Source: Stigmatella ashevillena (GTDB lineage: Bacteria; Myxococcota; Myxococcia; Myxococcales; Myxococcaceae). From it: a stretch of DNA of 64,000 bases. The translations under genes and the position numbers were made by a program. The stretch is from positions 4,768,425 to 4,832,424 of the forward strand of contig NZ_JAQNDM010000002.1 of the NCBI RefSeq assembly GCF_028368975.1, read 5' to 3'. Within the stretch, counting starts at the first letter, position 1. Each line of letters starts with the position of its first letter. A model generated the notes under the pieces. The model worked only from the letters and a program-made list of their open reading frames with translations, ran no database searches and was not told the origin of the DNA. Shown here piece after piece: positions 56,905 through 62,246 of the stretch.

Positions 56905-57954
56905 TCAGGCTTGGGCGGAGCCCTGCACGGTGATCCGGTTCTGCCGGTTCGTGCCAAGCCAGGTGTCCCGTCCGAGCCGTGAGGGCTCGTTCCGGTTGAG
57001 GTGGAACGTCTGGTTGACGCTCTCGCTCAGGAAGAGCTCGAAGGTGTATTCGAGCGGATCGCGGACGCAGAGGTTCACCACCTCCCGTGCCATGGGATAG
57101 AGATCTCCTTCGGGCATGAGCCGCCGCCAGGTCTGAGGGGCCAGCGGGCCGATCTCGACCTGGAACTTGCCTGTCCTGTCGAAGGCCTTGCCTCCCAGCA
57201 GGGTGTTGCGCCCCAACTGGTGGTTGGCGCGGCCCAACTGCATCTTCGCGTCGATGTCCACCCAGCGCCCCATGAACTGCCGCACGGACACGCGGGCCTC
57301 TCCCAGCGCGTCGCCCAGCACATCCTGGAGCGCCATCTCCAGCTTCTCGGCCGTGCGAACATAGCTGGCCAGAATGGGGGCGATCCGCAGCATCCTCCAG
57401 GCGGGCAACTTGCCCGTCTTCGCATGCACAAAGGTGTCAAAGCCCGCCAGGGCCAGGATGCGTTTGGACCACTGGTCGTCACAGGAGGAAGTCAGCTCAC
57501 TGGTGACCCGGTACCGGGACTCGATGCGGAAGAACAGGGAGAGCAGCCGGTGGTGAAACAGATCCAGGAACTCTCGGCGAACAGGCCTGTCCGGGTCCTC
57601 CTGGGCGATCTCCTCTGCCACGTACATGGGCAAAGGTGACGAGGAGCCGGTGAGCCCCAGAAAGGTGGTGACCACCTCGAAGAGCGGACGCCGAGCCAGG
57701 TCGTCCTCTTCCTGGGAAGCCACCTGCCGGAGCGACACATCGCTGACGTCTCCCGAGGAGAACCCCAAGGACGGGTCGTGCCGGAAACGAATCTGCTCCT
57801 CCAGCACGGGGCCCAGCTCGCCCACGCGCACCGCCTTCGCGGTGAGCCTCTCGAGGTAGGCCACCAACTGGAAGAAGTTGAGCCGCCGGGCCACGGGGCT
57901 CAGGAACTCGGCTGCGGCTACAAGATTCTCTGAGTGCCGTTCCTCGGAAGCCAC
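56905..57954 (-). CDS. tssG: T6SS baseplate protein TssG
   Basis: The 349-aa protein carries the TssG family pattern: NFFQLVAYLERL near the start, IRFRHDPSLGF, PLPMYVAEEI with a DLFHHRLLSLFFR element and a late FELFLSESV. TssG wedges with TssF in the baseplate. The start lies 37 bp inside the tssF gene, a normal overlap in this operon type. Confidence 0.93.
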   Translation of the reverse strand: MASEERHSENLVAAAEFLSPVARRLNFFQLVAYLERLTAKAVRVGELGPVLEEQIRFRHDPSLGFSSGDVSDVSLRQVASQEEDDLARRPLFEVVTTFLGLTGSSSPLPMYVAEEIAQEDPDRPVRREFLDLFHHRLLSLFFRIESRYRVTSELTSSCDDQWSKRILALAGFDTFVHAKTGKLPAWRMLRIAPILASYVRTAEKLEMALQDVLGDALGEARVSVRQFMGRWVDIDAKMQLGRANHQLGRNTLLGGKAFDRTGKFQVEIGPLAPQTWRRLMPEGDLYPMAREVVNLCVRDPLEYTFELFLSESVNQTFHLNRNEPSRLGRDTWLGTNRQNRITVQGSAQA

Positions 57955-59657
57955 GAGTACTCCATCTGCGAAGGTTGGAGCCGGAGCACCAGCTCGTTGA
58001 AGGCGTTGAGGGTGACATTCGAAGCGAGCAGCTCATCGAGGATGCACCCGAAGAGAAACGAATCCCCGGTTCCCATGAAGCCCGACTCCTCCAACTCCAC
58101 GGCGGTCCGGTTGCCTCGCACCGGCACCCCCTCCAGGAAACGGGTGCAGGAGCGCACCTCCACCGCGCGCACCGCATTGGTGCGCAGCCGGTTGGCCCGT
58201 CCTGTCAGGTCGTCCGTGATGGCGTGGAAGTTGTAGAGCTCGAGCAGTCGACGCATGGCGGCGGCATCCGCCAGGGAATGCTGGTTGATGGCCAGGTGAG
58301 AAAGAAGCCGCCAGTGCAGCTCGGTGCCCAAAGGCGCGCGCGCGGGTCGGCTCACCGGCGTGATGTTTCGAAAGCGCGCCTGAGGCGGTGAGGTGAAGGT
58401 GGCCAGACAGACGTCACCCACCTGCAAGCGGGTGGGCAACGAGCGGTTCGTGCACGTCAGATCGACGGACAGGGTCTCCTCGGACAACGAGGGCACCACA
58501 TCGCGCGCCGTCTCCAGCGAGAGATAGGTGTCAATGCCATCATCGATGGGAGAAGGCACCCTGCGCAGCCGGTAGAAGGCCGGCTCCATCCCCTCCCCCG
58601 CCCCGTAGGCAAAGTCGAAGAAGGGCCGGTAGACACGCCGATCATTGCGGCCCGCCATCAAGCCCGTCACGCTGTCCACCGAATACACCTCCGAGTGCTT
58701 CGGCTCCATGTCGGAGGCACGCAGCAGGTGTTCCCGGTCCAGCGTGTGGTGACGCAGCGGGTGGGCCGAGGCGGAGAAGAGGTTGATGGCAGGAGCGCAG
58801 TGGAGCCGGAACATGTCCCGGCCCACGCGAGCCTCCAGCGGAGGCGGACGCTCCAGGTGGAAGGCCAGCTCGAAGCGATCCTCCGCCGGAGCGACGTTCT
58901 CCAGTTGGTGCACCTCGAAGAAGAGGAACTTCTCCGGGAGCGTGAAGTACTCCTGGAGCTGCCGGTACCCCTCGGAAGCCCTGAGCCAGGGGAGCATCTG
59001 AAACTTCCGGTCGAAGCCGATGGGATGGATGGCCGTCGCGGGGAGCCACACCTTGCGGCCCGAGCCGAGCCTCACCTCCACGCCCCGGCAGTACCTCAGC
59101 AACCACAGGAGAATCAGGGAGCTGGTGGCAAGCTCCGCATGAATGAACAGCCGCAGCCCTCCGGGCTTGAAGACCTCGGCGCGGCCCGTCTCATTCGTCT
59201 GAAACGAGAGGCGGAGCACGGGCGCGATGGCGGAGGACTTGTCGAGCTGCGCATCCTCCAGCGTCAGGGGCAGCAGGTCCACGTCCGCCGTGGTCCGGAA
59301 GAGACAGGACGTCCCATCCAGCGGCTGGGCCGCGATCTCCACGCCCGCGGAAACGCGAGAACGACCTCGCAAAGCGCGCGTCTGGGGGGTGAACTCGATG
59401 ATGGTCGAAGCCGGAAGGGGACGCAGATAGTGCGGCAGCAGCAGGTCCGTCAGGACATGCACCATCTCAGGAATGTCGTCCTCGACCCGCTCCCGGATGC
59501 GGGCCGTCAGGAAGGCAAAGCCCTCCAGGAGCCGCTCGACATCGGGATCCGCGCCGCGCTCCACCAAGAGCCCGGCCACGGTGGGATTGGCCAAGCCAAA
59601 GGCCCTCCCCATCTCTCTCAGGTATGTGAGCTCACTCAGGTAATACTTACTGAACAT
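57918..59657 (-). CDS. tssF: T6SS baseplate protein TssF
   Basis: The 579-aa protein begins with the TssF signature YYLSELTYLREMGRAF, followed by NPTVAGLL, PDVERLLEGFAFLTARI and LLPHYLRPLPASTIIEF. It forms the main part of the baseplate wedge with TssG and TssE. Length agrees with the family. It starts 16 bp downstream of the tssE stop. Confidence 0.95.
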   Translation of the reverse strand: MFSKYYLSELTYLREMGRAFGLANPTVAGLLVERGADPDVERLLEGFAFLTARIRERVEDDIPEMVHVLTDLLLPHYLRPLPASTIIEFTPQTRALRGRSRVSAGVEIAAQPLDGTSCLFRTTADVDLLPLTLEDAQLDKSSAIAPVLRLSFQTNETGRAEVFKPGGLRLFIHAELATSSLILLWLLRYCRGVEVRLGSGRKVWLPATAIHPIGFDRKFQMLPWLRASEGYRQLQEYFTLPEKFLFFEVHQLENVAPAEDRFELAFHLERPPPLEARVGRDMFRLHCAPAINLFSASAHPLRHHTLDREHLLRASDMEPKHSEVYSVDSVTGLMAGRNDRRVYRPFFDFAYGAGEGMEPAFYRLRRVPSPIDDGIDTYLSLETARDVVPSLSEETLSVDLTCTNRSLPTRLQVGDVCLATFTSPPQARFRNITPVSRPARAPLGTELHWRLLSHLAINQHSLADAAAMRRLLELYNFHAITDDLTGRANRLRTNAVRAVEVRSCTRFLEGVPVRGNRTAVELEESGFMGTGDSFLFGCILDELLASNVTLNAFNELVLRLQPSQMEYSWLPRNGTQRIL

Positions 59658-59673: not shown

Positions 59674-60072
59674 TCACCACAAATCGATCTGACCTCCAGC
59701 GCCCACCCGTGTCCGGAAGCGGAGGAGGCCTTGGCTTCCCTTCTGGGCCAGCTGCGCGGTGATTTCGAACTTCAGGGCCGAAGGCTCTCCCACATCGGGC
59801 GTGTGCACGACGGTGACATTCTTCAAACGCGGCTCGTACTCCTGAATGGCCATCCGGATGGATGACTGCATCTTCTGGATGGCCGACGGAAACGCATGGA
59901 CGACATCGTTGAAGTCCAGGATGCCGTAAGCAGGCGAGGAAACGGACTCGCCCTTGCGGGTGTTGAGCAGCACCCGCAGGTGCGCGGTAATCGACTCCGT
60001 GGGATGCTCCCGCTGAGAAGACAGATGTCCGCCGCCCTTCTCGAGACGGGATAGGAGCCCACGGGTAGACAT
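59674..60072 (-). CDS. tssE: T6SS baseplate protein TssE (gp25-like)
   Basis: The 132-aa protein has the gp25-like lysozyme-related baseplate pattern: LRVLLNTRKGE, YGILDFND and a C-terminal RFRTRVGAGGQIDLW. ATG 60072 has GGAGG about 8 bases upstream. An intrinsic-terminator-like hairpin sits between hcp and this start (60093-60113), so tssE may be expressed at a lower level than hcp. Confidence 0.93.
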   Translation of the reverse strand: MSTRGLLSRLEKGGGHLSSQREHPTESITAHLRVLLNTRKGESVSSPAYGILDFNDVVHAFPSAIQKMQSSIRMAIQEYEPRLKNVTVVHTPDVGEPSALKFEITAQLAQKGSQGLLRFRTRVGAGGQIDLW

Positions 60073-60092
60073 CGCGTCGAACCTCCAAAAGA

Positions 60093-60113
60093 GCACCCGC
60101 GGTGCGCGGGTGC
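60093..60113 (-). terminator. Intrinsic-terminator-like hairpin between hcp and tssE
   Basis: Perfect 8-bp arms GCACCCGC / GCGGGTGC with a 5-nt loop are followed on the minus strand by TCTTTT, then the tssE ribosome site. It is well placed to reduce transcription past hcp. Confidence 0.6.
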
Positions 60114-60135
60114 CCCATGGTTGGAAAACCGTGCG

Positions 60136-60627
60136 TCAGCGCTGATCGGACCAGGTGTCCTCGTGCTGCACGCCCCCGTTCGTGAAGGTCCACGAGATGG
60201 TGTGGAACACGAAGGAGATCTCCTCCAGGGGCGGCTCGAAGGAGGTGGCGGGAACGATGGTGCTGGGCACGTACTGCTTCAAGTGGTTGATGCGGCCCGA
60301 CTTGAAGGCGACGGTGTAGAACTGCTCCGTCGTTCCGTCTCCCGTGGGATGAGGACGGAAGAACTTCAGGGTTCCCTCGACGACCGCGTTCTCCACCAGG
60401 GCCTTCATCAGGAGCGGCGAGCTCTTGTCGATGCGCTTGCGAATGAGCAGGGGCGCGTACTGGCGCCGACCCGTCGCCAGGCCCGAGCCGCGCTCACGCG
60501 CGGTGACAACTTCCTGCTCGTAATAGACGCACTCGATGGAGTTCTCGCGCCCCAGGCTCTTCTGGGTGCTCTCCCCTTGGATGTCCTGCCCATTCGCCTT
60601 CAGATAGAGGTGTACTGTCTCGGCCAT
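60136..60627 (-). CDS. hcp: Hcp (TssD) tube protein
   Basis: The 163-aa protein has Hcp features: METVHLYLKA-type N-terminus, KANGQDIQGES, an IDKSSPLL-like central segment and a C-terminal FVFHTISWTFTNGG. Hcp hexamers stack into the inner tube and may carry cargo. ATG 60627 has GGAGGGG about 5 bases upstream. It stands between two hairpins, one upstream of its ribosome site (60659-60680) and one downstream (60093-60113), which may raise its level over the neighbouring baseplate genes. Confidence 0.95.
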   Translation of the reverse strand: MAETVHLYLKANGQDIQGESTQKSLGRENSIECVYYEQEVVTARERGSGLATGRRQYAPLLIRKRIDKSSPLLMKALVENAVVEGTLKFFRPHPTGDGTTEQFYTVAFKSGRINHLKQYVPSTIVPATSFEPPLEEISFVFHTISWTFTNGGVQHEDTWSDQR

Positions 60628-60658: not shown

Positions 60659-60680
60659 CCAGAGCCGTTTCCGGCTCCGG
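60659..60680 (-). promoter_or_regulatory. 9-bp GNRA-loop hairpin upstream of hcp
   Basis: On the minus strand CCGGAGCCG-GAAA-CGGCTCTGG pairs over 9 bp with one G-U, closed by a GAAA (GNRA) tetraloop. It lies between the tssC stop (60753) and the hcp ribosome site. It probably serves as a stabilising or processing structure for the hcp message. Confidence 0.5.
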
Positions 60681-60752
60681 GCACGGTAAAGACATCCCCA
60701 GCCCCCCCCCGCGCGCTGGCGGCTGGTCTTGGACTTCACCTCGTACGGAGGC

Positions 60753-62246
60753 CTACTCCTTGTCGAGCTTGCCCACCAACGACAGCGTGAAGGCCGCTCC
60801 CATGTACTTGAAGTGCGGACGCACCTGGATGCCGCACCGGTACCAGCCCGGCTGGCCATCGACGTCCTCCACCGTGACCCGGGCCGTGCGCAGCGGCCGG
60901 CGCGAGCGGACCACCGGTGCAGGGTCGTCCATGTCGGCCACGTACTGGCTGATCCAGTGGTTGAGCTCGCGCTCCAGGTCCGCGCGCTCCTTCCAACTGC
61001 CAATCTGCTCGCGCTGCAGCACTTTGATGTAGTGCGCCAGGCGGCTCATGATGAACATGTAGGGCAGCTGGGTGCTGAGCCGGTAGTTGGTCTCCGCCTG
61101 CTTCCCCTCGGGCGTACTGCCAAAGAACTTGGCGCGCTGGGTGGAGTTGGCCGAGAAGAAGGCCGCATTGTCGGCGGACTTGCGGAACACCAGGCCGATG
61201 AAGCCCTCCTCGGACAGCTCGTACTCCCGGCGCTCGGTCAGGAGGATTTCGGTGGGAATCTTGGTCTGGATTTCTCCCAGCGCCTCGTACTGGTGAAGCG
61301 GGAGGTTCTCCACCGCGCCACCGGACTGGGGACCAATGATGTTGGGGCTCCACCGGTACTTGGCGAAGGAGTCCGCCACGCGGGTGGCGAGCGCGATGGA
61401 GGCATGCCCCCACAGGTAGCGCTCATGGCTGCCCACCACGTCCTCCTGGAAGTTGAAGGCCTTCACCGGGATGGTCTTCTCGCCGTAAGGCAGGCGCAGC
61501 AGGAAGCGCGGCAGGCACAGGCCCACGTAGCGCGAGTCCTCACTGTCGCGGAACGAATGCCAGCGGGCGTACTGAGGCCCCTCGAAGAGCGACTTGAGGT
61601 CCTTCAGGTTGGGCAAGTCGAGGACATTGCTCTCCCCGAAGAACTCCGGGCCCGCGTTGGCGATGAAGGGCGCGTGGGCCATGGATGCCACCGCCGCGCA
61701 CTTGCGGAGCAGCTCGACGTCCTGCGGACCCGGACCGAAGTCGAAGTTCCCGCACATCATGCCGTAGGGCTTGCCGCCAAAGACGCCGTACTCATTCGAG
61801 TAGATGAGGCGGTACAGCCCGCTCTTCACCACCTCCGGCGCGTCCTCGAAGTCCTTGAGCAGGTCCTCCTTGGAGACGTTGAGCATCTCCACGCGAACGT
61901 TTTCCCGGAAGTCCACCTTGTCGATGAGGAACTTCAAGGAGCGCCACGTGGACTCCATCGCCTGGAAGTCCGGATGGTGGAGCACCTCGTTGACCTGCGT
62001 GCTGAGGCGACGGTCGATCTCCGCGATCATCGCGTCAACGAGCGCCTTGTCCACACGCTCTTCGGCCCGATTCGGCGCCAACATCTCGGTGATGAAGGCT
62101 TGCACGCCGCGCAGGGCGACATCATAGCCTTCGTCCTTGGGCTTGAGGCGGGCCTCGGACAGGATGGAGCTGAGCAGGGAGGTGTCGCTCTCCGCCACGA
62201 CCCCCTCAGGAGTGCCACTCTTCTGGACATTCGTCTCGGTCTTCAT
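60753..62246 (-). CDS. tssC: T6SS sheath protein TssC (VipB)
   Basis: The 497-aa protein carries the TssC landmarks: HHPDFQAMESTWRSLKFL, DPLL-type helices, MCGNFDFGP, APFIANAGPEFF, RYVGLCLPRFLLRLPYG and a late LNHWISQYV. With TssB it forms the contractile sheath. It starts 19 bp after the tssB stop. Confidence 0.96.
   Translation of the reverse strand: MKTETNVQKSGTPEGVVAESDTSLLSSILSEARLKPKDEGYDVALRGVQAFITEMLAPNRAEERVDKALVDAMIAEIDRRLSTQVNEVLHHPDFQAMESTWRSLKFLIDKVDFRENVRVEMLNVSKEDLLKDFEDAPEVVKSGLYRLIYSNEYGVFGGKPYGMMCGNFDFGPGPQDVELLRKCAAVASMAHAPFIANAGPEFFGESNVLDLPNLKDLKSLFEGPQYARWHSFRDSEDSRYVGLCLPRFLLRLPYGEKTIPVKAFNFQEDVVGSHERYLWGHASIALATRVADSFAKYRWSPNIIGPQSGGAVENLPLHQYEALGEIQTKIPTEILLTERREYELSEEGFIGLVFRKSADNAAFFSANSTQRAKFFGSTPEGKQAETNYRLSTQLPYMFIMSRLAHYIKVLQREQIGSWKERADLERELNHWISQYVADMDDPAPVVRSRRPLRTARVTVEDVDGQPGWYRCGIQVRPHFKYMGAAFTLSLVGKLDKE

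Follow-up and report, generated by a model that had tools for sequence, protein, structure and literature searches.

On its minus strand, the window, a 64,000-nucleotide stretch of the Stigmatella ashevillena genome, carries the genes of a type VI secretion cluster in the order tssA, tssB, tssC, hcp, tssE, tssF, tssG and clpV. Judging from this gene order, the run from tssA to clpV would be transcribed as one message. Type VI machines require hundreds of copies of Hcp and few of TssE, and the two proteins are often encoded in one operon. The genes and features relevant to the hcp-tssE junction are as follows.

60753 to 62246, minus strand: tssC, sheath large subunit, the upstream gene of the putative operon
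60659 to 60680, minus strand: GAAA-loop hairpin, candidate 5′ flank of a protected segment, separated from the hcp start by 31 nt
60136 to 60627, minus strand: hcp (tssD), tail tube protein (Pfam PF05638)
60082 to 60127, minus strand: predicted extended fold, comprising a 12-pair stem (60116-60090) and a UUUCCAA/UUGGAGG pairing
60093 to 60113, minus strand: core hairpin after hcp, with arms at 60113-60106 and 60100-60093 and the loop at 60105-60101
60087 to 60092, minus strand: TCTTTT run 3′ of the stem, partly within the extended stem and not conserved among the relatives examined
59674 to 60072, minus strand: tssE, gp25-like baseplate protein (Pfam PF04965)
57918 to 59657, minus strand: tssF, the next gene 3′ of tssE

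The hcp stop codon ends at 60136, which leaves a gap of 63 nt before tssE. Read on the minus strand, this gap holds a hairpin with the arms GCACCCGC (60113-60106) and GCGGGTGC (60100-60093) and the loop GCACC (60105-60101); the stem amounts to 9 bp of perfect Watson-Crick pairing if the loop is taken as 3 nt. The stem is followed by TCTTTT (60092-60087), GGAGG (60086-60082), nine bases and the tssE ATG at 60072. The minus-strand sequence agrees with the first-pass annotation of this DNA, which had described an 8-bp GC-rich stem with a TCTTTT tail in a 63-nt gap, close to the tssE ribosome site. In the predicted fold, the stem is extended to 12 pairs, and UUUCCAA (60127-60121) is paired with UUGGAGG (60088-60082), inside which lies the tssE Shine-Dalgarno sequence.

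Among 5,000 dinucleotide shuffles of the hcp-tssE gap, 35 contained a perfectly paired stem of 8 bp or longer that closed a loop of 3-8 nt. The fold of the gap has a z-score of -4.5 relative to 200 dinucleotide shuffles (-4.2 in a second run), and the gap ranks second among 68 co-directional gaps sampled in the same genome (gaps of 25-150 nt in 464 kb, made up of the window and 20 further stretches of 20 kb, with crude gene calls). Of these 68 gaps, 34 hold some hairpin below -20 kcal/mol. In GC-rich DNA the energy of a hairpin says little by itself, and we therefore relied on z-scores, covariation and control gaps. A 111-nt segment around the hairpin folds no better than its shuffles (z -0.83, with 34 of 200 shuffles equally stable).

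We searched 96 genomes of the host's family for hcp and obtained 54 matches in 51 genomes; 40 of the 54 hcp regions, from 37 genomes and with the window included, make up the family set. Of these 40 loci, 36 have in the hcp-tssE gap a hairpin whose energy is -28.5 kcal/mol or lower, and a stable hairpin between the two genes is kept in 35 of the 39 relatives. In a similar scan, hairpins of -30 kcal/mol or stronger were seen in 35/40 family hcp-tssE gaps versus 8/68 co-directional genome gaps, the window's own among them. The hairpin is absent from the gaps of G035, G032, G033 and G045. The first three carry the Hcp proteins closest to that of the window (89-90% identity), and their gaps measure 27-30 nt. 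It follows from these four loci that the hairpin is dispensable.

Excess folding is concentrated in the gaps that adjoin hcp, with little in operon gaps further off. A z-score below -2 was obtained for 27/40 hcp-tssE gaps and 17/39 tssC-hcp gaps, as opposed to 0/35 tssA-tssB, 0/40 tssB-tssC, 3/39 tssE-tssF, 0/4 tssF-tssG and 1/36 tssG-clpV control gaps. The sequences of the hairpin arms vary between subgroups of the family loci, and compensatory pairs occur in five of six subgroups (none in subgroup F). In seven Archangium-like loci, seven pairs are altered on both sides (17/500 shuffles reach as many) and covariation amounts to 0.284 (a value reached by 0/500 shuffles, with slid controls lower), although kinship among the sequences can inflate both covariation and compensatory-pair counts. 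The hairpin is real, it co-varies, and in most of the family loci examined its place and fold are conserved while its sequence is not.

Several loci of the comparison have features of their own. Three genomes of the family (G041, G042 and G039) each carry two hcp-tssE clusters (L085/L086, L087/L088 and L089/L090), which differ in gap lengths and identity; the hairpin is present in all six. In one MAG (L004:4568-4759 and L102:4560-4751), the match covers only the first part of tssE, which may reflect a frameshift, a truncation or an assembly error. Two hcp matches (G129:C39:3011-3493 and G131:C156:5882-6361) contain one internal TGA or TAG and could be pseudogenes or sequence errors. A record titled Comamonas sp. 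KCTC 72670 (L030) has a Myxococcus-like type VI secretion cluster and hcp-tssE gap, and its label may be wrong.

We also considered loci beyond the family set. Nine further loci have hcp before tssE, with a hairpin of -20 kcal/mol or stronger in six and none in three. Another 19 loci have hcp with no tssE match nearby, and all have, no more than 110 nt from the stop codon of hcp, a hairpin of -24 kcal/mol or stronger, followed by a canonical T run in one (L045). Since hairpins at this threshold are not rare in GC-rich DNA, these 19 loci lend weak support to the idea that the hairpin goes with hcp. From 15 matches chosen among 60 listed of 437 records, we obtained eight Pseudomonadota plasmid loci in which hcp precedes tssE or tagJ (the tssE start of the Paraburkholderia locus being approximate); in the other seven matches, hcp lies elsewhere, is cut off or was not found. 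Six of the eight have a hairpin of -18 kcal/mol or stronger, which is missing in the Skermanella and Eleftheria loci, and z falls below -2 in 4/8. Two annotated plasmids have tssE directly after tssC, with a gap of 13 or 6 nt. T-rich stretches close 3′ of the hairpin can be found outside the family set in L033, L035, Sagittula and Leisingera. In L033, a Myxococcales MAG, the sequence between hcp and tssE (L033:4490-4620) has a 13-pair stem followed by eight T, which makes a far better intrinsic terminator than that of the window.

The first-pass annotation had also placed a GNRA hairpin upstream of hcp, and such a hairpin is present, with a GAAA loop, at 60680-60659. Across the family set, the segment lying 75 to 22 nt upstream of hcp has a best hairpin of -13.5 kcal/mol or stronger in 36/39 loci and a weak one in L085, L088 and L092. 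A GNRA loop upstream of hcp was seen in 4/39 loci. The z-score lies below -2 for 13/39 of the segments adjoining the hcp start versus 8/38 of the remainders of the same tssC-hcp gap, so the evidence for a second, 5′ hairpin is modest. The tssC-hcp gap of the window also contains nine consecutive C on the plus strand (60702-60710; nine G in the transcript), a possible slippage site.

Other identities were considered for the hairpin and its surroundings. An Rfam search returned one match, on the plus strand at 60158-60218, which was below the gathering score (18.8 bits, where 67 are required; E 2.7). A REP-like interspersed palindromic repeat was rejected, as a search of 10.95 Mb located the exact palindrome at a single site; with up to two mismatches it occurs at 43 scattered places versus 24 for the reversed control. 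A DNA-binding palindrome is disfavoured because the arm sequences change between relatives while pairing is kept. We likewise rejected an internal hcp promoter, having found in the tssC-hcp gap no sigma-70-like site and no sigma-54-like match with up to two mismatches.

The mechanism first proposed for this hairpin was partial intrinsic termination, in which polymerase would stop at the U-run in some passes and leave fewer transcripts of tssE and the later genes than of hcp. Several properties of the window are consistent with this. The GC-rich stem is followed by TCTTTT, and a perfect stem of the same dimensions with at least five T in the next 8 nt arose in one of 5,000 dinucleotide shuffles of the gap. 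By a terminator score known from the literature, the window ranks best of the 40 family loci (d 38.4, with a T-tract score of 4.14, compared with 3.0 for the next highest family locus and 7.15 for a perfect run); d is above 0 in 15/40. The hcp-tssE site is one of only two among the 68 co-directional gaps that passed a terminator-like scan of the sampled genome, as did 2/20 convergent gaps, and the hairpin 3′ of hcp3 in EHEC is described as a terminator (PMC13141884). However, a count over all 8-nt stretches 3′ of the loop finds one with at least five T in a single locus of the 40, the window, which has five, and 35 of the 39 loci that lack it retain the hairpin. Seven further family loci have four T of eight, and of these L101, L107 and L109 contain TTTT. 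(The perfect-stem finder reported no stem in 10/40 loci, although six of these have a strong bulged or long-looped hairpin, and elsewhere picked an inner stem.) The TCTTTT run of the window is itself short, interrupted by a C, followed by the GG of the Shine-Dalgarno sequence and partly consumed by the predicted extended stem, and the Yersinia hairpin at the equivalent place did not act as a terminator (PMC12503267). The absence of the T run in relatives thus weakens the terminator reading by comparison, but the site is still among the better terminator candidates of its genome. Given that its score is the best of the 40, partial termination remains the main rival here, albeit an unlikely one.

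The remaining alternatives place the effect in translation or deny an effect altogether. A translational brake, whereby the base of the hairpin would sequester the tssE Shine-Dalgarno sequence and lower TssE synthesis with mRNA levels unaffected, is suggested by predicted mean unpaired probabilities for that sequence of 0.18 in the window, 0.01 in L086, 0.05 in L087 and 0.03 in L089, and of less than 0.3 in 9 of the 19 loci having one. Yet the hcp Shine-Dalgarno sequence of the window is predicted to be equally paired (0.20), and values below 0.3 are also predicted for two hairpin-less loci (L082, 0.27; L083, 0.25). Moreover, a Shine-Dalgarno match precedes hcp in 40/40 loci versus 19/40 for tssE, with a match of at least 4 nt absent before tssE in the other 21, and in L085 and L088 the tssE site sits just 3′ of the hairpin. 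We rejected masking as a function shared across the loci, because in the window the hcp site is as paired as the tssE site and hairpin-less loci are also paired; the brake appears to us the least probable of the readings. As a second layer, masking of the tssE Shine-Dalgarno sequence is possible according to the folding predictions. It could also be supposed that the hairpin has no regulatory role and is a stem that arose by chance or is neutral, the intergenic DNA being rich in GC. Half of the co-directional genome gaps contain a hairpin below -20 kcal/mol, terminator-like sites are not in excess in a general scan of 10 kb (5 sites versus 6.0 expected, sd 2.9) and four family loci do without the hairpin. 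A conserved place with a sequence that has turned over, the compensatory pairs and the near-confinement to gaps adjoining hcp all speak against such a stem, and we regard it as very improbable.

We favour, with moderate confidence and on the basis of sequence comparison and analogy, the interpretation that the hairpin, lying between two cistrons, forms the 3′ boundary of the hcp segment and acts as a barrier to mRNA decay, which we consider more likely than a terminator. A hairpin that is conserved together with a T-rich run that is not is the signature of a decay barrier rather than of an intrinsic terminator. The locus has the arrangement expected of such a barrier, namely a stable hairpin that follows a gene in high demand and precedes one in low demand within a putative operon. 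The interpretation also draws on the protective stems without a U-tract described by Dar and Sorek (PMC5927463), on the precedent of Yersinia T6SS4 and on EHEC hcp3. Endonucleolytic cuts would fall downstream, and probably also upstream, of hcp. The stem would then halt 3′-5′ exonucleases so that a short hcp piece outlives the rest of the message, and the hairpin before hcp would shield the 5′ side of this piece. The outcome would be a shift of the balance towards Hcp and away from TssE and the baseplate genes. Folding predictions for this lineage also pair the hairpin's base with the tssE Shine-Dalgarno sequence, and in this genome the short U-run may add some termination. The broader claim of the first-pass annotation, that the two hairpins provide stoichiometry control, is sustained by a conserved, hcp-tied hairpin and a weaker but recurrent upstream one, whereas partial intrinsic termination fits less well as the mechanism. 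We tentatively raise the further idea, which may well prove wrong, that a hairpin pair bracketing hcp is a general stoichiometry device of type VI secretion operons, tied to hcp and not to the neighbouring genes, in which the fold is kept and the sequence turns over, and to which lineages add a U-run or the masking of the tssE ribosome site, or from which they drop the tssE Shine-Dalgarno sequence.

Known systems offer several points of comparison. Intercistronic stabilising stem-loops are found in malE-malF and puf, and together with the differentially decaying E. coli operons of Dar and Sorek, they resemble the myxobacterial arrangement in having a stable hairpin 3′ of the more abundant upstream gene with no U-tract. 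The puf stem-loop is mentioned in the Yersinia T6SS4 paper (PMC12503267), and the protective structures in the E. coli operons are described as lacking a U-tract after the hairpin (PMC5927463). These systems differ from ours in that other genes are involved and in that decay was measured there. As in Rho-independent (intrinsic) terminators, the hairpin in this genome consists of a GC-rich stem followed by a T-rich run; unlike in those, the run is weak in the window and five T in eight are absent from the other 39 family loci. The EHEC hcp3 3′ UTR (h3R region I) is similar in that a hairpin comes directly 3′ of the hcp stop codon; hcp3 mRNA fell when the hairpin region was deleted, and the region is described as both terminator and stabiliser (PMC13141884). 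It differs in that the next gene is vgrG3, which has its own promoter, and termination there is said to separate two operons (PMC13141884).

The closest counterpart is the T6SS4 of Y. pseudotuberculosis (PMC12503267). There, transcripts of tssA4, vipA4, vipB4 and hcp4 are more abundant than those of tssE4, tssF4, clpV4 and tssK4, and several hcp4 bands are seen on Northern blots. Mutation of the hcp4-tssE4 stem lowered hcp4 mRNA, with no change in the other transcripts tested. Another stem is predicted in the vipB4-hcp4 gap, and in the authors' proposal hcp4 is flanked on both sides by a protective stem-loop (PMC12503267). The S. ashevillena locus shares with this system, as described there, the gene pair, a GC-rich stem just 3′ of hcp, the stoichiometry argument and a further predicted stem in the interval from tssC (vipB4) to hcp. 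In contrast to the myxobacterial hairpin, that of Yersinia was tested by mutation; it belongs to another phylum, and the likeness is one of place and description.

Among the titles listed in our literature searches, none concerned a myxobacterial hairpin between hcp and tssE or the way in which it is kept while its sequence changes. Myxococcus xanthus, whose locus (L029) shows an identical gene order and for which Hcp protein levels are reported (PMC5801462), is a non-pathogenic laboratory organism in which the hcp hairpin idea could be tested. Elements of this kind have been described before, and the same gene pair has been put to the test in a different phylum; new here are the comparisons across Myxococcota, among them the finding that 39/40 loci lack the 5-of-8 T run. 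A conserved myxobacterial hairpin next to hcp, similar to that of Yersinia T6SS4, suggests that mRNA stability within the operon is a solution to the Hcp/TssE ratio that recurs.
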